The notes beneath the pieces are model-generated. The model worked only from the letters and a program-made list of their open reading frames with translations. It did no database searches and was not told the DNA's origin. This document shows positions 1-41,763 of a stretch of 43,137 bases of DNA, one piece after another. The stretch lies in contig FN649729.1 of assembly GCA_000310025.1 (NCBI GenBank), forward strand, positions 1,755,962 to 1,799,098. The letters run 5' to 3'. Source of the DNA: Ectocarpus siliculosus (lineage: Eukaryota > Sar > Phaeophyceae > Ectocarpales > Ectocarpaceae). The translations under genes and the position numbers were made by a program. Positions within the stretch are counted from its first letter, which is position 1. The number at the start of each line of letters is the position of its first letter.

Positions 1-2516
1 GGCCTTCTTCGGACGTAAACCGCCGCTCAACGTCGTCCCTTTTTTCCAGGAGGGGATGATGCGCGTGAAGCGCGCCAGCAAGGCGGACGTCCAATCCGTG
101 CGTTGCTTCTACATGCACGGAGCGCGCAACCACTCCGCCGCCACTGCCGTCGTTCTCCGCGCCGACACCGGAAGGATCTGCCTGTCCAACAACGTCGTGT
201 GGATCAACCGCCGCACCGCCGTGCCGGCGCCGGTACCGGCCAGCGGGGGGGGCTCTTCGGTCACCGCGGCGCCCTCGCCGGCCGCCGCCGTTCCTGCAGC
301 CGCTGCCGCACCGCCACCGCCATGGGCATCGCGGACGTACACCTACACCCCGCCCACAGCGACCACCGCTTCGCCGCCGCCCACTTCTCCGTCGATCTTC
401 ACAGGGTCCGGAGCCGCGTCGCCGATCTCCACGGCGTCTTCGAGTGCACCGCCGTCCACCGCAGCCACGCCGCACCCGTCCACCGCCGACACCCCCGCCC
501 GCAAGCGCCGCCGCTCCCCATCACCCGCCGCTTTCACAGCGAGCCGTCAGAGAATTGGGCGAGAAGGAAACCAGAGTGCATGGCCGTACGCGCGGCGACC
601 GAGTGCGCTTCATGGATGAGCAACAGCAACCGCCGTCGCCGTCAGGTGGCGGCACCGCTCTCCAACACCGCCTTGGGCTGCTGTCGATGATGGGCAAGGA
701 TGCGCTCGTCTCGTCGCTCGCCACCCGGGAGGCCGTCGATCAAGGACGTCGAGACCTGCCACCGTCCGCCAGCATCGCCCCTCCCGCTCCCCCACCGCCG
801 CAAGATACGAGTTTAGCAGGCCATGGGAGCGGGGGGGCCGCAGGAGCTGGAGGGCCGGGGGGCCTGCACATGTTCGCAGCAATGTTCGCCACCCGCGAGG
901 ACGTGGAAGCCACTCTTCGTGGCAAGCGCCCTCCTGACAAGATGCCGGACCTCCCTCACTGCCTCGCCAGCGACCTCCGCGTGCCGAAAACGTTCAAGGA
1001 GGCCATGCGGTCTCAACATTCAGAGTTGTGGGATGATGCAGTCGGTCGGGAGTTTTTCGGTCTGTTGGATGCAGGTACTTTTAGTCCGGTGTAGCAACCA
1101 GTAGAAAACTTCATCAACGCCAAGTGGGTATTCAACTGTAAGGCAGACGAGTACGGATGGCCGACGAAATTCAAGGCAAGACTTGTAGCGCGGGGGGACA
1201 TGCAGAGGGCTTCGATTGATTTTGGAGAATTGTTTGCACCCACCGTATCCGTGTCTAGTGTGCGTTTGTTGGCAGCTTTGGCATGTGAGCAGAACCTTGA
1301 CTTGTGTCATTTCGATATTCAGCAGGCGTTTGTGCAGTCTGAGCTTGAAGAGGATGTTTTCATGCGTCTCCCGCAAGGTTGTGGTAGGTTATCTGGACTG
1401 ATCGTGAAGCTATGCAAGAGTCTGTACGGTTTGAAGCAGGCGTCACGACAATGGCATGCGCACCTGACGAGGTGTTTGTTACTTTTAGGATTTGTGCAAT
1501 GTTTGGCGGATGCATGTGTTTTTCGATTTATGGAGGATGAATGTGTGATCATGATCATCGTGGTCCACGTGGATGACATTTTTGCCTTAGGGCAGAAGGA
1601 GAGATGTGACAAGTTTGGCAGAGACCTCAACGAGATGGTCCCCGTGAAGAACCTTGGGGAGTTGAGGTGGTACTCCGCGTGCTTTTACCAGAGAGATCTA
1701 GAGAGAGGCCTTTTGAGGATCTCGCAGCAAAGGTTTGCAGAAGAGTTGGCTGCAGAGTACGGCGTAGAGTGGGGGAAGAGTGTGCCCTTGCCTGTGAGCA
1801 TGAAGCTCACCGACTTTGACGAGGACGAAGCGTGTGCTGACGTCCCTTTCCGCGAGTTGGTAGGATCCCTGATGTGGTTGGCTACTCAAACCAGGCCGGA
1901 CATCGCGAATGCAGTACGAGCAGTAGCGCGGTATTGCGCGTCTCCCAAGATGGTGCACTGGAAGGCAGCACTTGGTATTTTAGGGTACGTGCGTAGGACG
2001 AGTTGGATGGGGATTACATTTGAGAGGGGTGTGGTGACTGGCATGAGCATGCAGGTGTTCGTGGATGCTGACTATGCGAGCAAGGCAGCAGACCGTAGGT
2101 CGGTTTCAGGAGGACTAGTGATGTGTGGGGGTGGGTGTGTGACTTGGTTTTCGAGGACGCAGAAGTGCGTTACGCTTTCCACAACGGAAGCAGAGTATGT
2201 GGCAATTGCCGACGTCTTGAAGGAGGTGCTTTTCTTGAGGCAAGTTTGGCGTTTTATGTTGCCAGATGCAGGTATGCCGTGCATTCAAATCTTCGAGGAT
2301 AATCAGGGAGCGATTCAGATTGCGCACAACCCGATCACGAACTCAAACTCGAAGCACATTGATGTACGGCATCACTTTATCAGGGAACTGGTAGAGAGGA
2401 AGGAGATTTCGATTACTCATGTGGCGTCGGAGTTTCAGCATGCAGATTTCTTGACGAAGGCTATCAGCAAGGAATCTTTTGCGTTGCACAGAGACTTTGT
2501 GATGAATTTGCAGTGA
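1..2516 (+). pseudogene. Ty1/copia retrotransposon pol, 3' part, disabled (integrase end, reverse transcriptase, RNase H)
   Basis: This is the downstream part of a copia-type polyprotein; it is already open at base 2, so the element starts outside the window. Bases 2 to about 400-530 read as the post-integrase region in the frame of base 2. A proline/alanine/serine-rich linker follows, and the frame then shifts by one to the frame used to the end. The RT domain (about 960-1900) shows HFDIQQAF and the catalytic VVHVDDI. RNase H (about 2050-2470) shows VFVDADY, STTEAEY, EDNQGA and KHIDVRHHF. The order integrase-RT-RNase H identifies copia rather than gypsy. One in-frame TAG at 1092-1094, just before the conserved INAKWVF motif, plus the frameshift upstream, make it non-autonomous. 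The RT-RNase H part from 1095 to the TGA at 2516 has no further break, so the copy is fairly young. Confidence 0.93.
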
Positions 2517-3200: not shown

Positions 3201-3580
3201 CTGTAGACCCTGATGAAGACTCACTTGTTTATTAATCTCTTGGAACAGCAGTGCTTGCTGTTGCTTGCTCTCAAAGGTAGACTGAGCACAGAGGGGGAGG
3301 ACATGCTCCCTCTAAAAGGGGCCACAAAGGTCCTGTCCCCTGTTTTATCCTTCCATCGGGAGTTACGTCTCCCGCTCTTTCCTCTGGGAATTACTCCGCA
3401 ATACCGTTGGCACTGGCTACATTCAAATCCCATAACATCTATCAGTGTTTCTTGTACGGTTCCCCGAGCAGCACACGACAGCAATTCTCCCCTGTGGGTA
3501 ACAGAGGCTCCACGAACATCTTGTTTTTCAGATCTTGGGGTCTAGACTATCTACCTATTTACCAATTTTACAGTAAGTTG
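3201..3580. other. Non-genic stretch between the copia flank and the repeat cluster
   Basis: Only short open frames without recognisable motifs or codon structure are present. I see no gene, RNA or clear repeat here. Confidence 0.5.
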
Positions 3581-4468
3581 TTTCTGCTCCGGATGCATTT
3601 CCTCCACGGGGGACATTAGCATCCGACTTTTTGTGGTATTGACCGAAGGACACCGGGAGAAATCGCGTACATACATACTTCGAAGACATTGCATCCCCTT
3701 TCTTTCCGCCCAAGGACCACGGACGACTGGTTACGTTTTTGTGTAGGATCTTGTTGTAGGATTTTGCAATCTTCTGCCGATGCATTTTCTGCTCCGGAAA
3801 ATAAGCATACCACGAGAGGTATGACCGAAAGGACATCGGGAGAACCTCGGGCAGAACAGGAACTTTAATCAGTGAAATGATGGTGCGAAGGTGAACATGT
3901 CTATTCGCGACGCGAGCAAGCGCCCAATATTCACCTTCCGTGGCCATAAGCCGACAGGGCATTTTTTTTACGGGGTCCTTACCACATGTAGAGCGATGCG
4001 TGTTTTAGAAAGAAGGGAAGTTTGCCCCGCGTTTAACGCCTATCTACTACATAGAAGTACAGTAGAATATGATGCATTTATCGCATAATACCATCGCATT
4101 TCTTTCCGCTCACCACGGACGGACGTCACAACGTTGTGTGGTCTTGCCTTTTTGATATTGGGACCGATTTTTTTCTGCTCCGGATAGCTGCTTCAGCAGG
4201 GGAGATGATGAGCATACCACGTCCATCCGCGACCGATCCCAGAGAGCAATGCCCAGCCGCAATAGAATGATCGTATATTGTCTAGCAGAGCAGCTTCCGC
4301 TCATCATCATGCAAACGGACGGTACGTTTTCAGATTCTTGATTATATTTTGGATCTTGTTTTGGATCTTCGTGCAAGTATCTCCTGCCGATATCTGCTCC
4401 CGATTTATTTCTTCCGCAGGAGGGGGGACATTAGGATACCACGCGAGGTATTGACCGAAGGACACACC
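3581..4468 (+). repeat. Cluster of four degenerate copies of one repeat unit
   Basis: Four copies of the same block lie in the same orientation at about 3581-3661, 3787-3843, 4172-4250 and 4392-4468. The shared words, in order, are tTCTGCTCCGGAT, a GGGGACATTAGCATACCAC-like part, and GGTATTGACCGAAGGACA with CGGGAGAA. The sequence upstream of each copy also resembles the others (cCACGGACGG..TACGTTTT..GGATCTTG..TCTGCCGAT), so the full unit is about 200 bp or more. The copies differ by many substitutions and indels. It has no coding potential; it is probably an old tandem repeat or a decayed transposon. Confidence 0.7.
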
Positions 4469-4479
4469 GTTAATCCGCT

Positions 4480-6315
4480 GCTGCGAGCACGTCTGCACTG
4501 CTGTACCCCCAGAAACATTTCCCCTTGTTGGAGAAAGGTAACTGAGGAGACAAGAGATTCTAAGTTGGGCCGGTTAGAGATATATATTGATCCGTGGGAG
4601 GAGGAAAGCGACAAGAAACCACGACAGAGAGGCGATTCAGGTTTTGGCCTCATAGGTTACGAAGAAAGTGTGTGCCGACGCCGAGAAGCACTGGACACTC
4701 ACCCACTCAGGGTTGACAAAGAGGCTGAGAGAAAGGTACATGAGTGCTTCGACTACGGCTGAGTAGAACAGGCCTTCGTCTACCTGCGTTGTTCGGGTAT
4801 GTACATAGCATGTGTGCATTGTGGAGGATGTGCAAACTCGCGAGAAAATAATAACTGCTCGGCGGGCGGACGACCCTTTCGTGCTACCGGCTGAACTGAA
4901 AAAACAATAGTTGGTGTTGGTGGGTGTTGTTGGTGCGTTGGTGCGCTCATGTGTGCGTGAGCCTCTTGCTTGATCGGATGCTTGAATCGTGCTCGATATT
5001 CGCCGTTTCCCTTCCCCCCTGCATGCATGTATGTACAGTGATCTGGCGCCGGCAACACATGGAGTCTGGCGTGACCGCCGATGGCGGTAGCTGTGAATGG
5101 CCTTCCTACGATGCAAAGGTGACAAATGACGTGAAAAAGATATGTTCGGTGTTTGAACATGAGCAGCGCCGAGAGTAGCACGTTGCCCATGTGCCACATT
5201 TTTCGCGATGAGACCCATCACCTCATCAGACGTGCGATTTAGGAGGTAGAGCAATAGTCCGAGTGGACGCTGCCAAAACTGCAGGGCATCTTCGTCCTGC
5301 TGGTCTGCGAGATCACAAATTCAACGCGGCGGTCAACCATGGTATTTCCAGGGAGTCTAGATACGGTTTGCCTGCAAGCAATGCATGTGCCGAGCTATTC
5401 CCTGCAGTTCACATGCCTATCAGTTGTCCTACATAACCTCAAGGAAATACACATACATTCATGCAATCATGACATGCACCGCACCGATATGTGGTAGACT
5501 TTTGTATGCAGCAGTACATCTACACATTGCATATATGAGCTTCTTTTTGTCGCCGCTGAAACCGCAGCGCTATTTTCTTCCCTGCACTTTCGCTGGAGCC
5601 TCGACTCATTCCTCCGTTGTCTGTTTTTCATGAGTTCAAAGTTATGCATAAGCCGTACCTATGGGGCTCTTACGACTGATCATGTGCTTCAGCACAGCGA
5701 TCCTTACACTCTCGCCGTTGCTCTCGTCGCGCTGCATGTGAGATACTGCCGATGTATACAGTATTTTTGACCCGCTTGTGAGATTTGGGTTCTTCAACGT
5801 GACGCACGTATTGCTCCGCTGACGGAGCCTCCGCTTTGTGCACCTCCGCCTCCACAGCATTAAACGCTCGACGCTCCTTTGTCGGGCTGACCAGCAGCAC
5901 CAGCAAGAGTACCCATCTCCGCTGGGCCTGCTTGCCATTTTTGGTGCTGTCGCTCTCGCCCCCACACCACGAGGCTGTCAACGGGTGTGTGTATACGCAT
6001 CGGGACAGATTGTACCCGTGGGTCAAACGTGAACATTTTCTCCCCGAATTTTTCGCATTCGGCAGTAACAATTATTTCCTGCAACTTTCATATGCAGCGT
6101 ACTGAAATACTTCGAAGTAAGAAGGAAAAAAAACTGCTGGTTTCCGCGGGATCCACGCCAAAAAAAATTAGAACAACCCTTTACGTCGGTGTGTGCTGTG
6201 CTGTGCTTGACGTCAAAAGTGGATACAGTAGGTACGATTGCTGTTGGTAGACTGCAGACCAACTATTCTGCTGTTCGTTCCACCTATCATGTTATCTACG
6301 GTTTTTAATGTGAAG
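4480..6315. other. Non-genic stretch
   Basis: Several open frames of 60-200 codons exist on both strands, but they overlap each other and have no membrane, domain or repeat signature. They end without splice-supported continuation. A 12-bp perfect palindrome TACTTCGAAGTA lies at 6108-6119. No gene or RNA is recognised. Confidence 0.5.
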
Positions 6316-12837: not shown

Positions 12838-15800
12838 ATGGCGGTTTGGGTCGCAGAAACCTTCGTTCGGACTGCACCTAGTCACGCAAGCCGAACCCGT
12901 CGTCAATTCCCGTTTCTTCGTTCACCTCGTCTCCAGTGGAAGCAGCAGGCAATGTACGAGTTGCGCGCAGCCATTCGCGACCGTCAGAGTGTCGCGGAGG
13001 GGTACGCTCGTGTCGATAAAATTCCGGGCAAGATTTCAGAGTCGCTGATGCACCAAGCGTTGTTGGCGCGTGATCCCGAAGATGGCCAAAACCTCATGGC
13101 ATACGCTGCCAGATGGGGACGGGAGGAGTGGTTTCTTTACCTCGTCCAACACGTTCGAGACAAGGTGCGACACTAACTACACGCACGTCATTCAACAGCT
13201 TCAAGCTTGAATAGTATGAGATCAGATGCGACGCTCTGCACACCACAACTGCTTTTGGCTCAAGTACAGTAGTCATGTTCCACGGTTTAATCTGCGTGAC
13301 CGAGCGGAAGACGTGTTGGATCATGCAAGACGACACACATGATTTTGTCAACAGACCGTTGTTCCGATAACGGCGATCTCCGAGTTTACTGGACCAGAAA
13401 CGTTCGGGCTCAAAATTCAGGGTACCTGGCGCCATGCCAAGCAAAGTCATGTTAAGTGGGGCATTCGATCCCTGTGGTCTTCGAATGGGTTTGTTGCAAC
13501 CTCTCTGGATGCCCTCTGTCGATGGCTGCCTATACGCACATTCACGGTCTATTCGTGCATGTAACCGCGTCGCGCGCTTGTGTGTATGCGTGCCAGCTTG
13601 GGGTGGGTTGCCTCGTGAAGCAGCTACGAGCGTGGGACATCAACGGCACGCCCTTGCTGTTTCTGGCGATATCCAGCCGTAGCTCCGAAAACTGCTTCAA
13701 AGCGGTGTTTGATGAGCTCGTCACTGCCCTGGGGAAAGGTGAGCCAGGAGAAGCCCACCGTCGGCTCAATTGGTGCGTCTTCACAAGAATGATGATTTTC
13801 CTTATTTTCTACTAGTGAAAGTGGCGGCTTTGCCGGCGTCGTCCGCCCGAAGCACAAATATTCAAGCGTGAGCGTGTGTATGACAAACATATATCATGGC
13901 GCGTGGGATGAAAGGGTTGTTCAGGGTAAGGAAGGCAACACGACGCGGGGCGTGGAACCCGGGGAAGACGAATCGGCGTGCATTCGCATGCGCCCCCTTT
14001 CTTTGAATCAGGCGGCCTTGTGGAGCAGATTGCAGCAAGCGACGACTTGGGGAGAAACATCGTGATGTACGCTGCTCGAGGCAACAGTGTGGACGTCTTC
14101 AAACGCGCATGGAAAATGTACCACTATCATCAGCGCACGTTTTCCAGCCCAGTCGAGGGATGGGGGGGTGCTCCTTCGATCACACTGACCAAAGTCGACT
14201 ACACGGGAAGAAACTTGCTCCATCATGCCGCAGAAGCCGGCTGCCTGGACGTGCTTAACGAGATTCTTCTGATGGTAAGGAAACTCTCCGATTCCGCTAA
14301 CGGAACGATGCACAAGCCCGACAAGAATGGGCTAACACCCTTGCACCACCTGCTCCGCGCCAAGTACGGCGAGCCAGAGGTTCCAGGTGATATCGAAGAT
14401 CCAGCTGAGTTCCCGCAGAAGTTTGAAAAACTCTGGCTTTATGGCAGCAAAGGCAGCTTCATGGCACGCCGGAAGGTCATGGCATTGCCACGTGATGGCC
14501 GGGCTGACGTCGCTGTCTCGGCTATTACGGATGTCATCCACGCGGCACGCGGAGGCCTGCCTTCCCTGCAGCTGATTCTGGCCAAGATTTGCCTCACGAA
14601 GTTCTGGCAAGGAAAGCCCAACAACACGGTTGTTACGATCGAAGAAGCCCTGTGCGTGGCTGTGCACGAGACGATGGAAGGTGAAGACGAGACGGAGGAA
14701 GGCGAAGGCGAGACAAAGGAAGGCGAAGCCGCCCCCGAGCAAGGCGAGCTTGATGCGTGGGGGTGGGGCATGCTCTTGGCGGCTGCGGCGAAAGGTGGAC
14801 ATGTGGACGTTCTCGAACACGTTGTGCACGCAATTAAGGTGGGTTTGTGGGCGATTTCAGAAATCGTGATTTTCGACCTTCGATCAACATCATGAGGTTC
14901 CAGAGGTCCGCTAGGCTCCCGCAGGCAGGGTACGTTCCGGGCGCAATGACGTGTCACGCTTGCACCGATCTTGATTGCAACACGCGCGCGCTTGTTGGTC
15001 ATGTCTGGTTGACACAAACTGCTGAACGCCCCGCCCGACACTACCTTCTTCGTTGCTGGCCGATGTAGACTGGGAGCTTCGTTGAGGGTCTCTCCGACAG
15101 GAATGCCGACCAACTACATACGGTGTACACAAACCAGGAGCTTCAACGGGTGGACAGGGCAGTCGAGGCGATCGTATCGAGCGGAAGCTATTTGTTCGGT
15201 CAGGCCGTCCTGTCGGGCAAAGTCGAAGTGGTGCTGTGGGTCTACCAGTTCTTGGCTCAGCGATACCCTCAGGAGGTACGCGTACTTCCATTGAAAGTTG
15301 TGAGAGTTAATGGTTAAATGCTTTGTGTTGTTTGGTAGGGCCCTCTTTTACTGTCTGGGAAATGCGTCCAGACACACGCCTAAAAGTGCAGAAGCTGTCG
15401 TGCAGGACATCACTGTGCTCCTTTCCAGCGGCCGTGCACCTATTCCGTACAACTGGAAATTCAAACAGGATAGAAACCAACAAAGTCTGCTTGAGCACAT
15501 GCATACCGTAGTGTCTTACTTGAACATGTGTTTGATTCGCTTCATGAACTTTACTTTGCGGAAGTACAATCTGGTGGCGGCATGTTGCTCGCGTCCATGA
15601 AAGAATGGGCAGATTGTGGTCGAACAGTATACGGGGCGAGTCCAGCGTAGATTATTCTGACCCGCGCTTCTACTGTAATACACTGCAGTTGTGGAAGAAC
15701 GTCCGTGGAGCACAAGATAAGATCAACGCATTGACGTGCGCGTCGTCCGCGTCGATGAAATGCGAACGCCAAGGTGTCGAGGTTCTGGTGGCGGTGTACA

Positions 15801-18800: not shown

Positions 18801-21800
18801 TGATCGGGACTCCATATTCCCGTCATCGCAACGATTCCCGTCATCGCAACGAATCTATGTAGCAATCCGTTGGTCATGGGTGCGGGCGTATCCAAGAACC
18901 TGAGAAGAGCCGAAGTCGACTGCCCGATGCATCGCGCGAAACTCCGCTGCCTTCAGCGGATCGTCGATCATCTCATAAACCAGGTACGGGAGACTCTATT
19001 CCCGCAATAATGGCGGCATTTTTTCGTTCGCGTGGCAACCAAAGAGATTTGTGCGTGTAACGCCTCGCTAATTTGCCTCTGAAGTATTGAGCTCCTAGTC
19101 TATGTTTTCCAGCGGCTGTTCCGGGTGCAAGCCACGGGTCGAGCCCAACTTGCCTTGCATCCTCGTATTCTCTGCCCAGCTGCTGGACAAGCTACCTCAT
19201 ACTGTCAGAGGGATGGGCATGACGTTGCTTCGTCCCATGGTACCCCACCACCGTCTGCCTGGGCTTCAACAACACAGGCTAGATACCTTGGCGAACCTCG
19301 CCGGCTACATGGTCGTGGTGAGTCAACCCTGAATAGAGCATAACAAGCTGTCTTTGTCCGAAGGCATAGCGACATCGCTCGTGTCCCGGGTTGTGGTTGT
19401 GGCAGGTTTTGAGTTCATTTCATTCATGTGTTGTTTTCGGCGGCGATGCACATTCACACGGAAGGGCGTGTGTTTTCAGTCCATACCCTCGACGTTTGAA
19501 ACGATTTGAGGGACGACTTTAACATACTCCGACCATAAGCACAGATCGACTGGACGGCAACTGAAGTCGATAATAATTATCATGGGAAGCCCACAGCAAT
19601 GTGCGCAGAAGTCACATCCGAGCGGTCATACAAGAAACGATGTAACCTATTTGCCCTCTGCGCAATTATTTTGTTCGTTTGTGGGTACAGGAGTGGATCC
19701 TGGAACCGCGGCTTCTGAACCGGCAAGCGACCGTTGGCAAGAGGTGAACATGGTTTACCGTTTTCGATCATCGCTGACATTGCTCCACTCCCATCATGCC
19801 GAGAGCAAAAAAGCAACTATCTTGTTTCTTGTTTCAAGTATACTCCCAAAAGCTGTTCCAGTAAAGTAGAGGCGTTCTCTACGTTTCGAAACGTGGCGCC
19901 TTCTGCAAAACCGGTGGCCCACCATCACTTTCAAACGGTTGCCGGGTCGGCAGGTACAACGGTCCCGACTACATGGACCCACTGCAGCGCGCTCTGGACA
20001 GGGGGTCAAAGGCACTCGACTTCGTGGATTCGCCTCTGGTTTTGGACTACATCCATGTCAAGTTTTCCTGCACTCTGCCAAACTGGGCCTCGAGTAGCTC
20101 CATCCCAAAGACGATCAACGCGGGATTCTACACGTACAATGCTTTCGACGAGTACAACTTTTCTGAGGTTTTGTCGGTGAGGCCGGAACCGCCTGAGGCA
20201 AACCCAGGGGGCGGTTCGCAGCCGTGCAACTCCAAGAAGTGGGACGATCGCCTCCTCAGGTAAAACAATACTCCTGGCCATACGGAGCCTGCTTGAAAGG
20301 TCACTTCCACCTCGAACTTGCACGTGCTGCACACCGTGTACCGACCGGTGGTAGTGCTTCGGTTTCTTAACCCTACCCAACTCCACCACTTTGAAGCCGT
20401 GACGAGTCCTACTTGTTTTCCCATGCGATCGCGTGCCAGATTCCTCCAAGGATGGAACCCCACGGACATGAACCCGGAAGAACAACCGCGCGGCAAATCG
20501 ACGAGACGGTCGGATCGGAACAAGTTGCCACACACCACGATATTACCTATGCTGCAGTTCTCCCTGGCGGGGCTTATTGGGAAGCCGGCAGTGTTCTACA
20601 ATGTGCCTGCCGTCCGGTTTGCCCTCGAGTTCTTGCACTATCTGTGAGAAACGTCCCGAATACTGCAGTTGTACTCTCGGTCTTTGGTTGAAATGTCCAA
20701 AATGAATGATATCGCTGATCTTGAACTCCAAGAGCGATTCCATCTAACTGACGGGTCTAACAATTTTCGATGAAACGCTACTGATCACCACTACATGCAT
20801 GTATACATGTACCAACCAACTCGTGGTTGTTGCGATCGAGAGTATCACACCCCAAACGTTCTCGCCATACCCTCGTCGTTCAGGGTGATGTTGGGGCTGT
20901 TTTGCTCTTGCGTCAAGCTGCAGGACAGCTACAGGATCCCACCCGCCGAGGTTGCATTCTACGTCTTCATGGCGGTGAGCAGCTTTTTCGAGCAGGATAT
21001 AAGACCGACTTTTGCAGACTGGTTCGACCCTATTTTTGACGAAATGAAAACGTTCCGCTTTTTTCTTAGTACTGTATTTCTTGGGTTACAAGCAGGCTTT
21101 ACTAACCCTCAATAGGGAATACACCAGATATATCAAGGAGAAAAAAGCGACACGAGAAATAACACAAATGAAGGTCGGAGGGGAAATCATGATTGAATAA
21201 GGCCCAGATTCATACGAGATAAGACATGTAGAGCTCATCGCTTCCACTAGGCACGCGAGGCTACGCCAGAAACCATCGAAGGAAAAAGGAGACCACAAAT
21301 CAAGACAGATCAGCTCATGATATCGTTGTTCACCATATTCTACCGGACGCCGAAAAAGGTCCGAAAATGATTCTCGCGGTAGATTCAAATCCACGTTTGG
21401 GTGCTTCCCTCGACAGTGTGCGATTCCACGAAGGCGGAGTTGATTAAAACTCAATGTCGTCCATGCACAACGGAAAGCATTCCCTCCGACAAACGTTTTC
21501 ACGCAATTTCTCTGCGAATCAAGGGCACACTTTGGCGAGAGATCCTCGAGTTCTGCGACGGTGTACCAGCCCGTCACCGGCGGCACAGGAAGAACAAGCA
21601 CATCAAAGAGGGGAATCAGGCGAACATGGCTACTGCGGTTCAGGGGGCGTCGAGCAAACGATCTGACATGGTTGACTATGGGCAAGGGAGGGGTCTGAAG
21701 CGAGTGGCGTCTGCAATCACCAGGTGCTACAATCGGTGGTTTTCGTCCTCTGGATATGCATGGTCTGGTTTTGCCTGCACCCAACATTTATAGCCGTTCA

Positions 21801-24800
21801 ACCTCTCGAGCTTTCGTGCTTCAAAGGCGGGGCTTGCACAAGGCAGCTCCTTCTACTACATATCCTCATGTCGATTTCGTCTCGCGCCAATTTCTCCATA
21901 CGACACGAGGTGACATTCTGTCCACGCCACGGTCGTGGTCGCCGCCGGTTGTTTTCCGCCCGCCCCCGCCTGCACGTACCGGCGAATGGTTGCACTGTTG
22001 TAACTATCCGCTCCCTCGGCAGATATCTCTTTTACGACACTTGGAACTTGTTGGACACGCTGACTCTATCGACGGTTTTCCTGGCCTTCGTTTTCCGCCT
22101 GCTGGGAATACGCGAGTTCGGGGGACCTACAGACCCGGGGGACTACTTCTTTGTGGCCCAGTTCTTCCTAGCCGTCAGGTATGCGGGTAGGAGAAACCAC
22201 GACGGACGTGTAGCAAGAAGAAGTCCAACCATTGATGTGCGCTTGCCTCCAACCCACCTGGCCCTGCTCCATCCGTCTTTGGTGCCACTGGTCTCTATCT
22301 GACTGCAGCTACGCATTGCACCCACTCCTACCTGCGGCTTGTATTGCTCCTCTAGACAGCTTGCATACGCTTTTCAGAGGAAATGATGGCTGTCGTTGTT
22401 TATCCTTTCGAAACGGGACACCTTGTTTATCCTTCCGGAAAGGGACACGTGATAGAGGCCGTCGCCTCTTCACTACCGTTGAAAGGGAAAGACTGTGTTC
22501 AGCCAAACATATGCCAACCGACCCGCACTCCACCTTACACCTCGCTTGCCATCTTACAGCGCGCCCCTACTGTTCGCTAGGCTGTTGCGACTTTCCCAGA
22601 TTGACAACACGCTGGGGCCCATGATTCAGGTGAGAAATATGTCGATGATTGATCCACGATTTCTTGTTTGCCCATCCTCCGGGCGTATTTTCTAAGCGTT
22701 TAACTGGGTTGAGTGAAGCCCACCCGAATCTCCATTGCAATTGCTCCGTGAGCAAGAGGTAACGAGCATTCCCCGTGCCGATTATTCTGTCCTTCCTGCC
22801 AGATAATCTGGAGAATGCTGTCCCAGACCCTCCGCTTCGGAGTGTTCATAGTGGTGGTCATGGCAGGCTTCGCCCTTGCGTTCAACGCCGTGTTTGGGTC
22901 TTGCGACGCCGGGAGTGGCCTTGACGAGAGCTACGGCTCCTTCGGCACAGCACTCCTTACCGTCTTTAAAGCGCCGCTCGGGGAGTTTAAGTTCGAGGAC
23001 TTCGATGACGTCGGCGGCCAGTGCCCGTACAACCCTTCACCGGGGCGGGCTAGCGATGCAGGCACCTTCCTGCTGGTGGTGAGTGGGTGGTTCGTCTGCA
23101 GGGTTGTATCGAACACCATCCGGTGGGGCTCAGGTGGGGTTGATATTATCCGCAAACCTTTTTTTGTACGAACCTGTAGGTCTTAAAAAGATCTCGATTG
23201 TTGTCAGATTCTTATCGTCTGGGAGGCGCGTAAGTCCTCGGCTCGGGTTCCACGGCCATGATACCGTTAGGCCGCAAAAACACCACTGTCACGATTGCTA
23301 CGTCGTAATATGGTCGAATCCCTTACAGCCATTTCTCGTGTTGATGAGCGATTTTCAAAATAGCCAGCACGCAATAATTCCACTATTCTGCGATACCTCT
23401 CACAAATGCTTCCCTCCACAACACTTTCGCCCCTCTCACCGTGCCAATATTCGTCTCTGCAAATGTTGACCACCAGGCGTACTTGATTGTTCTTGCGGTT
23501 GTCATGCTCAACCTTCTCATCGCCGTCCTCAGCACGGCTCACGGAGAGGTAAGGGAGACCCCCAGCAACAGCTCACGGAAAATCCGTACCCACGGTCGAT
23601 GCGCACGGTCACGGGGCACCCAGCAAGCCACCACTACAACACTAGAACGATTGGCCGTCGTACCCTACAAGACATTCAGTCAGCGACCTCAAGTCTCCCC
23701 CTTCCACCACCCACAACAAGCTGTTAAACAAGTTTCCCTCGATTCTTAGGTCAACGCCAACGGTGAAAAGGAATTCCACCTCGCCCGCACGAGGTTGATT
23801 CTACAGAGTGCGCGCGCGGTTGCACACCGACGCATTCCGCCACCGTTCAATCTGGTCCAGCTGGTGATGGGCTTCCTGTTGGATGGGGTCAGTGAGCTAA
23901 CTTGGTGGGCGGGGGTTGACGCGGGCAGGTAAGGGGCGGAGAACGGAATCAAGGGTCGGGCAATAAGCGAGATTCACATGGCGAAGACCCGGAAACAATG
24001 CGTGTATGTTTGTGTAGGCGAAGCATGTTCAGATGTGGGGGTTGTTTGCCGGTTCGCAATGACATTCGCGCTAAGACTGAACTGGCACGGCGTCTGATCG
24101 GCGTTCAGGTGTGGACTGCGTCAGCAAGAAAAGACCCTTGCGCCGATTACTTCCACGTATGGCTGGCACACCTTCGACGGATTGCTGCAAAGGCTTCTTT
24201 TCGCGTCAACGATGGGTTTGGTCGCAGTGGCGCTCAATGCGCTGCTCTGGGTGCTGTCCCTTCCGTGGGTGGCGTGGAGACTCGTTTGCTGGGTGTCGTA
24301 CAACGTGAGGGAGACCAAAGTCTACATGTGGTGACGTTCCTTTGCAGGAGGCCAACCAATCTATGCCCCCAACTAAAGCTCCCGAAAAAAGGAACTGTCA
24401 CTCAAGAAATAAAGACAGTCGACAGAATGCTTCAGATTCTTTGTCAATTTTACACTTTCAATCATCTTACAAAACTTGAGACCTGAACCCTTCCCCCCTC
24501 CCCCCTCCCATACGTTGGCGTCATCGACGTGAAACTACCACTACATCGGGGGGATCTGTGATCTAAACATGACAGGTCGTCAAAAACCCCGACGATGAGG
24601 TTGAGACGTTTATGTCGATCAAGCTTAAGGACAAGAAAGGAAAATTCAGAGCGTTTCTGTGGGTCCTGGGGGGCATTATAGCTTGCCTGTTCGCGCTGTT
24701 CTTCGCTGCGGTACTTTGCGCGGTCTGCGTTGCCGGATCCCTCGTTCTTTGGTTGCGTGGCGTGTGCAACGTGTTCGAGTGGGCTCACTGGAGACGTTCC

Positions 24801-26051
24801 GAAGAAGGGAGGTTTGTTTCAGGCGAAACCAAGGAAGGCCCTTGTCCCACGGCAATGCCCGGGCAGGAACGCGGCCAGAATTGGCGGCATGCCTGGAAGT
24901 ACGTTGCGAAAGCCCGGAACTTCCGGATCAGTCACGAGCACGACTCGGAGCACTTTCATGTCGGCCCATTACTGCAGGCTACGACGGGGCTTGACATGGA
25001 GCAGTTATGTCTTCGCGCCAAGGAAAAATTCATCGACCAAAAGCAGGAGCACCGGGCGGACGCGCCAAGCGCAGGAAAATGTGTTGGTGGTGGATGCCTG
25101 GACGATCTGGACCCAGGCGCAGATGACAGTTCGGTTCCCCGTACGCAGGCAAGTGCAGACGTACGAGACAGCGCGTGCAGTAGTTGGAACTTCCTCCAAG
25201 CATGCTACATTGTCGCACGCGCAAAGTACATCCTCCCCGTAAGGCTTCTGGGCAGTCTTGAACACTGTGCTATCTTTGAAGCTGTTGAACCAATATTGCG
25301 CAAGATGTACGGAGTCAAGCTCTGTTGGAGATGGGCTGCGTTTCATGTTCATAGCTTGAGCCCACCGGGTGGAGCATCGACACGTCCCCGATAAGGTTGA
25401 GACAACAATGATGGAGATCCACCATGACACACACTGGGGATGGTTGATCTGTCTGGCTTAGCACAACTATCGTTGACGGCGTCGGTGGTTCCTCCCAAGC
25501 CCTGATCATCGAAAGACACGACATATGGTGATGTTTTCAAGTATGGCGGTCGTGCCCTGTCGTACCCTCAGGCGGACGAAGCACCACAGCATTCCGGTAC
25601 GAGTCGCATGGATCTCTCGCCAGATTTCGAGACCAATGTGGAGAAATTCTTGTCAACGGTGACGACCCGGATGAGGGAAAATACCGCAGCCACCGAGATC
25701 GATGGGGGCGAAGAGAAAATTGCACCAACCACTCCACCACCTCACGATCTCGGGCAACATCAGGATAGGGGAAGGGCTCATAAAGGAATCCAAGTGCCAT
25801 GTTTCGGCGGCGAGGGAGTTTCGACAGACCGAGATGGAACAGCGGTGTTTTCACGTGGTGGTGGCGCCGAGAAGGGCAGCACGGATAGCCCCGACAATGA
25901 ACCAACGGAAAGCATCGTCAGCGGCGATTGCACTTCGCCCGATTCTAACCTGCCAGGAATCTTGGGGCTCCGTTCAGTTTGTGAAAGGGCTAGCCCACAA
26001 AGAGGGGCCAATTTGCTAGGATCAATGGATGGGAGTTCCCGAAGAACGTAG
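12838..26051 (+). CDS. Ankyrin-repeat TRP-like ion channel, about 28 exons
   Basis: This is a large membrane channel of about 1,950 residues. ATG 12838 (atcATGgcg) is a good start context and opens exon 1 directly. The N-terminal ~1,000 residues are degenerate ankyrin repeats, for example GRNLLHHAAEAGCLDVL. A conserved linker follows (SPLVLDYIHVKFSCTLPNW), then an S1-S6 ion-transport core with a pore loop and the S6 motif VVMLNLLIAVLSTAHGE. After it come a basic TRP-box-like helix, extra membrane segments and a hydrophilic tail ending at TAG 26049-26051. Exon phases agree throughout: phase 0 in the ankyrin part, mostly phase 2 around the linker and S1-S4, phase 0 at the pore. The fold (ankyrin plus 6TM with NLLIAVLS) is typical of TRP channels, which pass cations across plasma or organelle membranes; ion choice and stimulus cannot be read. 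No stop or frameshift was found in the chosen exons. One stretch (15406-15626) is unresolved. Confidence 0.87.
15406..15626 (+). other. Possible extra exon(s) of the channel gene, frame unresolved
   Basis: Between two well-supported exons, two overlapping open stretches look coding. One is in the frame of 15406 (ITVLLSSGRAPIPYNWKFK); the other is in the frame of 15513 (VLLEHVFDSLHELYFAEVQ and GGGMLLASMKEWADCGRT, ending at a possible donor after 15626). They are in different frames. A tiny intron, a frameshift or an alternative exon would be needed to join them. Skipping both leaves the main reading frame intact, because the flanking exons are phase 0 to phase 0. Confidence 0.4.
18816..18851. 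repeat. 18-bp perfect tandem duplication in a channel-gene intron
   Basis: The word ATTCCCGTCATCGCAACG occurs twice head to tail, 12 bases before the acceptor of the exon at 18863. It is probably replication slippage. It lies where the polypyrimidine tract would be. Confidence 0.9.
19136..23548 (+). other. Channel gene: exons of the linker and S1-S6 pore core
   Basis: The exons are about 19136-19317, 19691-19743, 19954-20259, 20440-20643, 20884-20974, 21524-21723, 22023-22178, 22560-22629, 22803-23078 and 23477-23548. Phases join correctly at every border. I read S1 around VMLGLFCSCV, S2 around VAFYVFMAGTLWREILEF, S3 as LLDTLTLSTVFLAFVFRLLG, and S4 as FFVAQFFLAV joined to APLLFARLLRLSQ. S5 is FGVFIVVVMAGFALAFNAVF, the pore is SFGTALLTVFKAPLGEFKF, and S6 is AYLIVLAVVMLNLLIAVLS. 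The S3 and S4 borders lie in different exons (22023-22178 and 22560-22629). S4 has only two arginines, unlike voltage-gated channels, which favours a TRP-like assignment. Confidence 0.85.
22391..22449. repeat. Two-copy ~27-bp tandem repeat in a channel-gene intron
   Basis: Two copies of TTGTTTATCCTTnCGnAA(A)GGGACACn lie head to tail with three or four differences, inside the intron between the S3 and S4-S5 exons. Confidence 0.8.
23750..26051 (+). other. Channel gene: C-terminal exons with TRP-box-like helix and extra membrane segments
   Basis: The exons are 23750-23928, 24109-24304, 24576-25238 and 25542-26051. The first encodes a helix after S6 (EFHLARTRLILQSARAVAHR). The second contains a hydrophobic stretch LLFASTMGLVAVALNALLWV running into further hydrophobic sequence. 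The third contains LWVLGGIIACLFALFFAAVL followed by CAVCVAGSLVLWL. The fourth is hydrophilic, Ser/Thr/Glu/Gly-rich, and carries the stop. The donor at 25239 (ccc|gtaagg) and the acceptor at 25540-25541 are inferred. Reading past 25238 would instead stop at 25394. Confidence 0.7.
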
Positions 26052-36262: not shown

Positions 36263-37440
36263 TCAGCGTTCGCCTTCAGAGGGCCGGTACAAAGGTGACA
36301 ACTTAGGGCCTTTGACCGCTACTTCATTTACTTCCCGTACCCCCGTGTCAACCTCATCTCCCGACCGTTCGTCACTCGTCGCCGAAACGTCGTCGCCGGC
36401 AACATTGTCGTCTCCTCCAGCAGCATCGACGTTTGGCGCATCATCCCCCGGAACAGCGGCAGCCTCGGCAACATCAGCGCTCGGCGCGCCATCGACGCTC
36501 CCAGCACCGACGCTCCCAGCACCATCGCCAACATCTTCAGCACCGCCGTTGCTGCCAACATCGCTCACGTCCGCTGCCACGTTCTCATGCTCTTCTCCGC
36601 TCTTTGTCTCGCCGCCACCCTCACCACGACCGCTGTGAAACACGCCGCCAGGCTCCGCCTTTCCTTGCCCTTCGGTCTCTTCTACGCCGGCGTCGGCACT
36701 CTCTTGGCCGACAGCGGCGGGGTCCTGATGCGCGTTGTTCGCCGGGGAGGCCTGCCGGTCATCTCCTGGAATGGCGGCAGCCTCCGCAGCTGTCGAAACA
36801 CCAGCACCTGGCGCATCATCGACGTTTGCAGCACCATCGACGCTCGCAGCTACGCCGACGTCCTCACTCTCTTGGCCAACAGCAACAGCAACAGCAACGG
36901 CTGGGGAGGCTTGCCGGTCATCTCCTGGAATGGCGGCAGCCCCGGCAGCTGCCGCAGCACCAGCGTCTAGCGCACCATCGACGCTTGCATCACCATCGAC
37001 GCTTGCAGCCCCACCGCTGAGTTCTGTAACCCCATCGCCAGGTTCTGTAGCACCGCCGTTGCTGCTGGCAAACATGCCGTGCGCTTCTTCGGTCTTGGTC
37101 TCGTCCCAACCGCCGCTACGCCCTCCGCCAAACGTGCGGCCAAGCTCCACCTCACCGTCGCCTTTGGTCTCCTCTACCCCGGTGTTAGCACTCCTGCTGA
37201 CCACGGCGGGGTCGTCGTACGTGTTGTAGGTCGGAGTTGCATGCCGGTTATCCCCCGGAAGAGCCAACGCGGCAGCCACGGTCGCATCCAACGGGGGGCG
37301 GGACGGTGAACTCCGCCGGCCCCCCCGCGACTTGACGGAATACCGTCCGCGCTCGGTCGAGGGTCGTGGGCGGCGCTGCTGGTGAGCATTGAGAGAAGTC
37401 CTGTTGAGCGTGGCGGCGGCAGCTGGGGAGCCTCCTCCCG
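36263..37440 (-). other. Acidic repetitive cytoplasmic tail of the LNR protein
   Basis: About 390 residues after the membrane helix are Ala/Gly/Asp/Glu-rich and predicted disordered. Related blocks recur: ALPGDNRHATP or IPGDDRQASP (three copies), then DPAVV/DPAAV, then NTGVEET or DAGVEET, then a Gly/Glu-rich part. DNA copies (for example around 36750 and 36910) are about 159 bp apart. A GTTGCT-type run gives AVAVAVAVG. The repeats suggest expansion and contraction by slippage, so length may vary between strains. Confidence 0.8.
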
Positions 37441-40400
37441 TCTCTTCCTCTTCCCCGAATACCTTCTTGCGGAACACGCCACAGACGGCCCAAGCGCCGC
37501 ACCCGAGCATGCAGAAGCCCCAGAAGGACAACGCAAGTATTCCTCCCAACTCGGTTTTCGAGACGCTCATTTCCGAGTAGCTTGGCAGGGACAGCTCCTC
37601 CGTGACAACGACCGGGGTCGGCGTGAATGAGAAGGCACCACGCTCGTCGTAGTCGTCGTCGCCGTAGGAGTCGTCGCTGTCGGAACTTTCGCCGCTTGTG
37701 CTCCCGTAGCAGAGAGAGGTCTGGTCAAGGCAATAGTAGCCAACCACCCCGCACTCGTAAACCTCGCCGTAATCGTAGCAGTCGCACTCGCAACAATCAC
37801 CTGCCGTATTCATTCGTGACCAGAAAACGCCGCCAAGCAAAAGTTCAAGAGAAGGTATATATCTATTTATCACTCCCGTTCATCAGGTAACGCGTTGAAG
37901 TTCTCAGCGAGTTGATGGAATGGTGATGCATGCAGAAATCCCGGAGAGACCAAGCGTCGCTAGACTCGGGCCCAAGCCAACAACGATCAAACTGGATCAT
38001 GTCCGTCGTGTTCGGTTACTTCGGCCAATCGGCAAAACAGAAAGAGCGGTGACTCGTACTCACCGCCGTCGTAGTCACAGGCTGCGTTGTTATTCCCGGA
38101 ATCGCACTTTCCGTCTGACACGGCCCAGTCGCCATCGAAACACCCCGAAGACACGCTATCAGCGTCGGAGCTTGTAAGGTATGTGCTGAAGGTCGAGGTG
38201 GAGACGTCGTTGTCACCATAGTAGGTGGTGATGGAGTCGCAGCCGTAGATCGGATCAAGGCAGGTAGTGCTCGAGCAGCCATAAGCGCAACAGTCACCTG
38301 TGGCGTTGTTTCGTTCGGCGTGGTGTGGCGAACGCGACACTCAGCGGTGAAGGGAACGGGTTGACTGTGCAGACAAGCTTGCGCATCTCCGGATGGTGGG
38401 AGAAAATGGGGGAAAGAATAGCTGGGAAAAGAGTCGGGTATTTGAGAGTACAGGTTGCTGCACGATTGGTGTTTGCGTGGTGGGCAAGCAAAAATCACCA
38501 AACACAGAACTCGGAACGTTGGTCGAAGGTGGTCAAACATGATCTACAGCACTTCCTACTAGGCGCCACATGATGTTGGTCGGCAAGCATGGGCATGAGA
38601 ACTTGTGCAACAGCCAGAGATCGAAACATGCGCTCATGGATGTTGCTGGCAGATGGGATGAACGCCGTTGGTGAAAGCTCTGAAGGAGGCGGGCGAAAAA
38701 ATCAAACTAGGCAATGCTGGTGCTGTGCATGCGAAAACTAACGACCGCCGCACAAACGGCGCCTCTCCGCCATTGGAAAACAAAACAACAAGTAGCCGTC
38801 GTATATATGTAGCCGACTCTCGCTTTCACACATAAATTTGTTTGGAAAACAACCCACCTCCATCCCAGTCACAGTCCTCGGTATTGTAGTAAGAATCACA
38901 ATAGCCGTCCGATGCCCAAGGGCAGTAGGGAGTGGGACTTGGTGTGGTGCAGTTGGCGTTCGGATCCTGGCAGTCCATGCTGTAGGAGCTACACGAGTAG
39001 TAGGAGGACCCTGGGATGGATAGCATGCAACGGGCGAGCAGCGGCAGGTGTTTATTGGCGGACGGAGGCATTGGTCTGATGTCACAAAATAGCCGGAATT
39101 GGCTTGGCCGGTCGGGAACAAAATGTCCCTCCCAAAAACGAATAATACGGTCAAAATCAAAGTCAAACAACACTAGCGTTGATGGCCATGCGCAAACGAG
39201 TCACCACCGCCCTGGACATTGCACCTCGCTGGGTGCGTGATGTCGTTCAACTTCCGGAAGTTTTTTGACAACGCCACAGGCGGCCAACACGCGCGAGCAC
39301 CCTGAGGGACCTATCGCAATCTGAATGAAGTACAGCACATCTACGGGCTGAAGCCGAAACCCGTGCAAGCATACAAATCGGATTGGTCAATCAAACATGC
39401 GACAACAGGGCCCAGACCATGGATCCCGTCACAAAGGGAAGGCCTTTGCCTCCGACGCACGCGGGAGACACGGACATCCCTTTCGCCAAGCAAGCCGAAA
39501 AGTGACATTGTTCAGTCTTCCGTGCTACCCGTGCGCTAAATACGACGGTTGTGACGAGAAGACATCACGTAGGGTAGCAACGTTCACCAACGATCCGCGC
39601 GTACAGACAAAGCGACAGAGTACAGGCACAGGGCGAGAGTAGCAACGAATGCCATCAACAACAACAACAACAGCAACAGCAGAGGCAACGCCACACCTTC
39701 GCACGTGCAGGAACAGCAGTCACCCCCGTCCCAATCGCATTCCTCGTTGTTGTTGTAGTAGTCGCAGGACCTGCCGCGGGGAAACATCGCATGCAGATTC
39801 CTCTCAGGACGCGTCTCGGTGCGAAAAAGCTCTCCTGCATAATACACAACCTAAACCTTGAAGACACCAATATCGGGTGCCACCCACGCAAGGGGTCTGG
39901 TGGAAGTGGGCGAGCTTTCGAACGCGACGGTGACAAATCATTGGTCTAGTCTCGCCCCTATACTGTAAGGCTTTGTGTCTCGTAGCAAGACAAGGCACCA
40001 ACAGCCTGAACGGGTGGCATGTCCGGCTAACATGGTACACATTCGTCGTACCCTTTGATAACCTCCTCACGCACCCGTCTCCAATCATGTAGATGTAACC
40101 CTCGCATTCCGGCCAGTCGGTCCCCGCGGCAGGGCTAGGCGTCGGGCTGTCCGTGCTGCAACTGCTGGGGGCGTCGGGGTCCATGCAGTCGTACCCGTAG
40201 TAGCCGCAGTTGGTGTAGTACCCCCACGAATTGTAGTCTCGACACGTGCAGCGGCAGCAGTCGCCTGCGACCACGACGGCAAAGCGAGACGCGCAACGAC
40301 ACAAGCACACAATAAGATGACGAAACCCGCCGGGTGTTTCGACACCGTCATGGAACGCATGGCGACTCGAAAGGCAGCCAAAGGGCTCGGCAAAGGCCTC

Positions 40401-41763
40401 GCACCCCCCGCCAAAGGATAACCCCACACACCAGACTGCCAGATTTTTCCGTGCCCCAAGCTCAGGTCACTGCTGCACCGCGGCACTCACCCCCGTCGTA
40501 GCCACACTCGGCGGTGTTGAGATTGTCGTCGCAAACTCCGTCCTGCCACTCGTACAAGTACTCCTCGCAGTCCGGATAGCCGATTGCAGCGGCCGGGCTG
40601 GGTGTAACGCCGCAGTCGTCGGGCACGTCCGGGTCGAGGCAGTCGTAGCCGTCCCCCAGCTGTCCGCAAGGGTGCGCAAGTTCCTCGTCGCTGTCCGAGC
40701 CACAGGTACAGGCGCAGCAATCGCCTGCGATGGAGTGACAAAACGACCGGTTAAAAAATTGAAGCACACGGAGCATTTGGTTGTTTCTTTGTCTCGATCG
40801 GGCGCCAGTCTGCTCTTCGGTGTGTGTTTGAAGCAGCAGCTGGGTCACATCCAACAGTGCCGCTAGAAAAAATCGAACCAACCATGCGAGGAGGCGGATC
40901 GTCGTATCATCCTCCCATCGATGAAAGGATGCTATATCACCAGCCACGCTGTAAAACACGGCACTCTACCTTTCACACGGTGGCAAACAAAAACCCACCC
41001 ATATGGAGTTTGAGCACGCAGGGAGACAACGTGTGCGAAGCACGTAATATATTAACTGTCTACTACCGGTGTATTGTCAATACGTCGGATACAACAAAAA
41101 ACGGACATACTCCGCGTACGAGGAGCGAGTGTTTGCCCCCCCTCCCCCGTGATTTCCCTATTAACGACTGTGCCACGGCAATACCTACATGCGCATTGAA
41201 CCGACGGTAAGAACGCGCCCACCAGCTGGCATGCTTTCGCGAACAGTGAGATGCGGGTACGCCGCACAGTCAGCCGATATGTAGGACGAGCGACACGCCA
41301 CCCCTCAACTCCCTCTCTCCAAGACGGTGCGACCGCATTCGTGTCGGCATGGTGCAAACAAAACAATTCGGCGAAAAACACGCCATCGGGTGGCAGGGAG
41401 CAGCAACCAGCCCCACTCACCCCCATCCCATCCACACTCCGCGTTGTTGAGGTCCGTGTCGCAGTACCCATCCTTTATGTGATTGGTGTAGCCGAGGCAG
41501 CCAAGATACTCGGGCGAGCCATCCGAGGGTGCCGGAGTCGGGATCTCCGCAGATTCTCCGGTCTCCGGAGATTCGGTCGCCAGATCTCCGGTCGCCGGAG
41601 CCGCGGTCTGCGGAGCCGCGGTCGGACTCAACGCAGCGTTGTCGTCGTCCTCGCTAGTTGTTGCAAACACGCCCGCGTTTTGTCGGACTAGGAGCATGCA
41701 GCAGCAGGTGACAACAACCAAGCCTAGCCACCGCACGGGGCGAGGGCGGCGTTGTCGAGCCAT
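36263..41763 (-). CDS. LNR (Lin-12/Notch repeat)-containing type I membrane protein, seven exons
   Basis: The exons, in gene order, are 41763-41421, 40724-40491, 40264-40075, 39770-39697, 39010-38858, 38297-38064 and 37800-36263. Their lengths sum to 2766 bases, that is 921 codons plus stop, with correct phase at every junction (mostly phase 1). ATG 41763 is followed by a signal peptide (MARQRRPRPVRWLGLVVVTC and more hydrophobic residues). Outside the cell lie five modules of the form C..DG.CD..xN..EC.WDGGDCC, for example DGYCDTDLNNAECGWDGG. Each is followed by a second cysteine cluster (CxCxC..DCxDP..C) and a Thr/Ser/Pro linker. One membrane helix (GGILALSFWGFCMLGCGAWA) is followed by RKK. 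Introns mostly split the DGG|DCC site. LNRs in Notch bind calcium and guard a cleavage site. Here there are no EGF repeats, and the ligand is unknown. A role as receptor or adhesion protein is inference. Confidence 0.92.

Follow-up and report, generated by a model that had tools for sequence, protein, structure and literature searches.

Five four-cysteine LNR modules fused to cysteine-rich appendices in a likely type I membrane protein of Ectocarpus siliculosus

A gene on the minus strand of a 43,137-nucleotide stretch of the Ectocarpus siliculosus genome (assembly GCA_000310025.1, contig FN649729.1, positions 1,755,962 to 1,799,098; this whole stretch is the window referred to below) encodes five LNR modules, each of which has exactly four cysteines and is devoid of C4 (CDTDLN, CDDNLN, CDYYNN, CDSYYN, CDSGNN). 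In every module, DGGDC is followed by a second cysteine, here called C7, with which a cysteine-rich appendix begins. The gene product is probably a type I membrane protein with an ectodomain of five tandem composite units, each made of a two-disulfide LNR fused to such an appendix.

Cysteine Pattern of the LNR Modules

The initial annotation had located five modules with four cysteines each between 38064 and 41763, all of them lacking C4, and both the location, which is on the minus strand, and the count were confirmed. The Notch-type form with six cysteines, which by the example of PAPP-A is not universal among LNRs, was, according to the cysteine count, not present in any of the five. The kept N-terminal cysteine had been taken for the first of the canonical six. 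This assignment agrees with partner logic, and the cysteine is named C1 on that logic only, because the modules retain C5 but not C4; profile alignment with GNPTAB was ambiguous, as one profile aligned the cysteine to the first and another to the second N-terminal cysteine of that protein. Its distance to C3 is 11 residues in modules 1, 2, 3 and 5 and 7 residues in module 4. The residues D19, N23, D30 and D33 (the D after C3, the N and the two outer positions of DGGD), which we take to be the calcium-ligand positions of LNRs, are invariant in all five modules. Other splice borders that would restore the missing cysteines were rejected, since the C2 and C4 sites are interior to exons in 5/5 modules, and the alternative splicing considered in the initial annotation is thereby excluded as a cysteine source.

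Against Pfam, residues 1-523 matched PF00066 as the sole family, in five stretches (48.4 bits, E-value 1.2e-12), and the domain order that marks a Notch receptor, from EGF repeats through LNR and membrane span to ankyrin repeats, was found neither there nor in residues 520-921. Taken singly, four of the five modules exceed the curated cut-off of PF00066 (21.2 bits), with module 4 just below it at 21.0 bits. All 48 cysteines of the predicted mature ectodomain, which would extend from residue 35 to the membrane segment, fall inside the five LNR-appendix units. They are divided into 20 in the LNRs and 28 in the appendices, which amounts to 10, 10, 10, 8 and 10 per unit and thus always to an even number.

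The Cysteine-Rich Appendix

Contrary to the first assumption, the repeat extends beyond DGGDC, since C7 and the appendix continue each module. Most of the five appendices follow the consensus C-x-C-T-C...C...D-C-L-D-P-x(3-5)-C, with CECDC and CLDQ as variants in appendix 5 and the joint loss of C8 and C10 in appendix 4. Appendices 1 and 2, submitted alone, belonged to no Pfam family, and the appendix of one paralogue found no match in the PDB at E 10. A search of NCBIfam with three whole units returned nothing, and the LNR itself was also left unmatched, hence this search is little informative. Within the library and the terms used, the literature contained no account of the appendix or the split between C4 and C7.

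In 27 algal appendices, which are paralogues and not independent, C8 and C12 covary (20 with both, 4 with neither and 3 mixed; Fisher p 0.004). The set was hand-picked from 45 appendix rows, of which near-copies and those lacking a C-x-x-P-like motif were removed and one was swapped for its spliced form. The cut-off of 11 residues for C12 was chosen by eye. For the alga, the covariation is a hint, though no proof, of a C8-C12 bond.

Occurrence in the Source Genome

The source genome comprises 189 Mb and contains 82 matches to PF00504 (chlorophyll-binding); it is therefore photosynthetic. The pattern N-xxx-C-xx-DGG, which is neutral towards C4, matched 134 times versus 70 times for a reversed control, and narrowing it by an aromatic-type codon before DGG left 93 matches versus 7. 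A DNA pattern that demanded C4 showed no excess (16 matches versus 25 in the reversed control). With the narrowed pattern, 73 distinct hits were read by script, with identical copies collapsed and near-copies kept; some of the 93 places lie outside this set, mostly ones that share all 29 letters with a place that was read.

C3 was found in the same frame in 36/73 hits, including four of the gene's own modules, and C4 was absent from every one of these readable modules (0/36). A single cysteine occurs within the 16 residues before C3 in 35 of the 36, and two occur in the remaining one, where the further of the two was assigned to the preceding appendix. Across the readable modules, the N-terminal cysteine stands 7-15 residues before C3. 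The remaining 37 hits contained one with a cysteine at C4, at contig position C6:2618823. It was rejected as a six-cysteine LNR and judged a chance match, since no in-frame DGxC precedes it and a stop follows. The residue after DGGDC is a cysteine in 25/73, a glutamate in 8/73 and a lysine in 1/73 hits; in the other 39/73, DGGDC is not read in frame, in most cases owing to an intron that comes next.

LNR exons that end in DGGDCE, with neither C7 nor C4, were observed at G000 C18:2.70-3.37 Mb and on the contigs C69, C145 and C26. Near-identical LNR exon pairs or arrays (C11:2488568 and C11:2522611; C17:5652565 and 5685676; the C164 copies) suggest recent local duplication or assembly copies. 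About 20 kb past the window end and on the opposite strand, an LNR module, CTSSFVGDGWCDTYNNHADCEWDGG, is present at G000:C4:1819549-1819632 (+), which is a family neighbour of the five-module gene.

Bacterial and Viral Relatives

A scan with the unit profile over genome contigs gave 24 matching stretches, from which 16 loci were confirmed. They belong to Neomarinimicrobiota, Myxococcales, an uncultured proteobacterium and two unplaced bacterial metagenome-assembled genomes, several of these being marine by name. The 35 modules of these loci, read by script, lack C4 throughout (0/35) and possess C7 throughout (35/35), where the scan pattern (DGGDCC) itself required C7 of its hits. This bias was loosened by searching for PF00066 in 11 scanned genomes as well as in the phyla to which two of these belong, where 9/245 and 9/282 genomes had a match at E 0.01. 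From 46 loci (L102-L147), the script read 47 bacterial modules, 38 without and 9 with C4. C7 is present in 38/38 of the former and in 0/9 of the latter, with a p of 7e-10 that overstates the independence of the 47 modules. The nine modules with C4 lie in G448 and G314, both of them newly drawn genomes, and each module has two cysteines in the 14 residues before C3. Matches in six loci were missed by the script pattern and read by eye: L112 lacks C4 and has C7, L127 and L128 have C4 and no C7, and no LNR was readable in L129-L131.

In the bacterial locus L093 (about 3560-5200), tandem LNRs were observed in which C7 is the sole cysteine before the next DGxC. Here, C7 might double as C1 of the module that follows.

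The viral contig L004 (IMGVR_UViG_3300010883_025529) encodes a unit with C1-x4-C2, the C2 being plausible, together with C4 and an appendix. The appendix thus also occurs with a six-cysteine form, and the C2-C4 pair can be separated from it. Searched against a phage collection at E 0.01, the L004 unit had no relative. By eye, the frames after the LNR-appendix protein on this phage-like contig resemble tail-sheath genes.

Comparison with Known LNRs

The pattern of the algal modules, with C4 absent, C3, C5 and C6 kept and in register and C7 following, is likewise seen in LNR3 of human PAPP-A (pappalysin-1; PDB 8hgg, 8a7d). For this repeat, the PAPP-A cryo-electron microscopy paper reports two disulfides arranged 1-3/2-4, as well as calcium density at LNR1 and LNR3. 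The two-disulfide chemistry suggested in the initial annotation thus has a solved precedent, with which it fits, and the four-cysteine LNR pattern is not a new subclass, contrary to what had been supposed. LNR-like domains with two lost cysteines were also reported earlier from the copepod Oithona nana, where 156/178 LNR domains are classed in this way, several of the proteins being joined to proteases (PMC8301441).

Nevertheless, PAPP-A LNR3 differs from the algal units. A metalloprotease carries it once, at its end, whereas the algal units form five tandem copies, and the cysteine-bearing tail after LNR3 contains C-R-D-P and is devoid of the CTC motif of the algal appendix. The alignment does not extend to the N-terminal cysteine of LNR3. 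LNR1 of the same protein is another variant, which keeps C4 and lacks C5 as aligned. Whole-unit profiles align across the PAPP-A tail, with shared cysteines and C-x-D-P.

The LNRs of Notch (PDB 3i08, 3eto, 4zlp, 2oo4) have the core DGxCD..N..xC..DG.DC in common with the algal modules, and profile matches to them range from about E 1e-11 (Notch1) to 9e-6 (Notch2). They differ by the lack of C7 and of an appendix and by their place in a receptor with EGF and ankyrin domains; six cysteines and three disulfides are given for them in the PAPP-A paper. The LNRs of GNPTAB (PDB 7s05; E 5e-8 with the unit profile) share the core as well, but both keep C4 as aligned and have no second cysteine after DGGDC or DAGDC.

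Interpretation and Alternative Explanations

In each of the composite units, the LNR would pair C1 with C5 and C3 with C6, and its conserved N and D residues would hold calcium. The C2-C4 bond known from Notch LNRs would be missing, and the appendix probably adds stability instead, as it could contribute two to three further disulfides from C7 onwards. Each unit might then be a rigid calcium-stabilised bead, with an LNR core and the appendix as an extra turn with bonds of its own, and five beads on Ser/Pro/Ala-containing linkers could result in an extended ectodomain. Judged from this architecture, a calcium-stabilised surface or wall-facing recognition ectodomain is most likely, with a presumed role in adhesion or signalling, and not a Notch-type protease switch. 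Lin-Notch transmembrane proteins are reportedly repressed in a cell-communication mutant in the etoile study. The Ectocarpus literature describes Notch-domain (IPR000800) genes, 16 of them in gamete transcripts, with no Notch receptor among them, and for this reason the recognition role is preferred over the switch. These genes, including Esi0061_0098 of the etoile study, feature LNR-type domains like the gene described here.

A true Notch-like switch, in which the LNRs cover a membrane-proximal cleavage site and the tail is the released signalling domain, would be compatible with the likely type I topology, the position of the LNRs N-terminal to the membrane and the 402-residue tail, as well as with Presenilin and Nicastrin, which are reported in Ectocarpus gametes. 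However, neither the ectodomain nor the tail has an EGF, NOD, RAM or ankyrin domain by Pfam, and the LNRs are spread along the ectodomain instead of being packed on a membrane-proximal domain; because of the missing EGF, NOD and ankyrin domains and the spread-out repeats, this explanation is regarded as very unlikely. Even less credit, close to none, is given to the assumption of ordinary degenerate LNRs, in which relaxed selection in one protein removed the C2-C4 disulfide and left the modules as remnants. Module 4, with its score just under the Pfam cut-off, its odd C1 spacing and its shortened appendix, would suit such a decay, but the identical four cysteines are retained in 5/5 modules, the cysteine number of every unit is even, and C4 is absent in 36/36 readable genome modules and 38/47 bacterial modules. 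The same counts, together with PAPP-A LNR3, bear out the initial annotation in its preference for a shared loss over decay. The N-terminal cysteine could further be C2 instead of C1, with a pairing of its own, for example with the appendix, which would make the module a differently wired domain rather than a Notch LNR minus one bond. The distance of 7-15 residues to C3, the fit of the profiles to either N-terminal GNPTAB cysteine and the bacterial set, in which C7 goes with the absence of C4, are in line with this. On the other side stands PAPP-A LNR3, which has the same C3, C5 and C6 pattern and two disulfides in 1-3/2-4 order, its N-terminal cysteine lying outside the aligned stretch; by numbering, C1584, the PAPP-A cysteine in the place of C7, falls outside LNR3. 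The rewired domain is accordingly considered unlikely, and the two-disulfide LNR with C1-C5 and C3-C6 pairs is retained as the preferred reading.

Beyond the single gene, the LNR without C4 and the DCCxxTC...C...DCLDP appendix may tentatively be regarded as one ancient composite domain, distinct from the three-disulfide Notch LNR, although this wider proposal falls somewhat short of being probable. The C2-C4 bond would be replaced by a second turn starting from C7, and the domain would be common to bacteria, phage-like contigs (with C4 still there) and brown algae, where it would have been amplified into a genome-wide surface repertoire, with PAPP-A LNR3 as an animal relative. Several observations count against the composite two-disulfide unit as the preferred reading. 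Of the 38 bacterial modules without C4, 37 stem from the 11 genomes scanned with DGGDCC, 17 of them from a single genome (G005), and only one (G180) from a newly drawn genome. Moreover, the 14 residues before C3 contain exactly one cysteine in 23 of the 38, two in 5 and none in 10, so that the term four-cysteine is strictly true for 23/38. The odds of the ancient domain are lowered because the bacterial modules are interdependent and because of this strict count. Nor are the missing C4 and the presence of C7 strictly linked. In 9/73 algal hits, DGGDC is followed by E or K, most of these having C3 in an unread exon. Two viral-contig modules, L003 and L004, combine C4 and C7 with a similar appendix, and the six-cysteine homologues that the initial annotation had named as a refutation of the subclass were thereby found in part, as both carry C4 and L004 a plausible C2 too. 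The C8-C12 bond is not general either: C8 occurs in 1/20 bacterial and phage units and C12 in 12/19 of those without C8, and the bond is therefore unsupported in these units. Finally, a profile of the appendix alone scored -3.8 and -2.3 bits against the PAPP-A tail, values that 1741 and 1526 of 2000 shuffles equalled or bettered, and a homology of appendix and tail is unproven.

If the composite domain is real, LNR-based tallies of Notch building blocks in organisms other than animals lump together two modules of different wiring, and the proper comparison for the algal surface proteins is with PAPP-A LNR3 and the repeats of bacteria and not with the Notch switch. Additionally, it would provide a simple rule for sorting LNRs, by C4 or by C7 after DGGDC, and constitute a domain beyond the current Pfam models.

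Gene Model and Features

The seven-exon gene model of 921 residues holds on sequence grounds (Table 1). Intron phases, read by script from the GT/AG borders, are 1,1,2,1,1,1 and consistent across all seven exons. Five of the six introns are in phase 1, four within DGG|DC and one within appendix 3, and the sixth, in phase 2, lies directly before C3 of module 3. The initial annotation had ended the feature at 38064, which is too early: the model runs on to 36263 and thereby gains a hydrophobic segment at residues 494-516 and a cysteine-free tail of 402 residues. No Pfam domain was detected in this tail (residues 520-921) at E 0.1. With a predicted signal peptide and a single predicted span, the product is likely a type I membrane protein.

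Table 1. Features of the five-module LNR gene in window coordinates, all on the minus strand.
Feature	Residues	Position	Strand	Remarks
Whole gene model	1-921	36263..41763	minus	7 exons, 921 residues; GT/AG borders and phases read by script
Exons		41763-41421, 40724-40491, 40264-40075, 39770-39697, 39010-38858, 38297-38064, 37800-36263	minus	
Signal peptide	1-34	41662..41763	minus	likely; hydropathy up to 1.78 over 19 residues; end at 34 guessed
LNR module 1	89-117	40717..41499	minus	PF00066 27.9 bits; intron splits DGG|DC
Appendix 1	118-152	40612..40716	minus	six cysteines, C7-C12; no Pfam family
LNR module 2	167-195	40257..40569	minus	PF00066 24.8 bits; intron splits DGG|DC
Appendix 2	196-228	40158..40256	minus	six cysteines; no Pfam family
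LNR module 3	246-274	39716..40106	minus	PF00066 23.5 bits; intron just before C3
Appendix 3	275-301	38949..39715	minus	six cysteines; intron-split
LNR module 4	310-334	38290..38924	minus	PF00066 21.0 bits; N-terminal cysteine 7 residues before C3
Appendix 4	335-351	38239..38289	minus	short, with four cysteines; lacks C8 and C10
LNR module 5	384-412	37793..38142	minus	PF00066 21.7 bits; intron splits DGG|DC
Appendix 5	413-440	37709..37792	minus	six cysteines
Membrane span	494-519	37472..37549	minus	likely; hydropathy 1.80, then RKK
Ala/Gly/acid-rich tail	520-921	36266..37471	minus	402 residues, no cysteine

Other Features of the Window

An open frame at 13930-14895 (+) contains ankyrin repeats (PF12796, E 1.3e-7). 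The frames 21676-22302 and 24573-25394, the latter of which returned nothing from Pfam, show membrane-like stretches by eye and, on this visual impression, may belong to an ankyrin channel gene. At 1095-2516 (+), an open frame with the reverse transcriptase domain RVT_2 (PF07727, E 2.9e-38) is a Copia-type retroelement copy or remnant.

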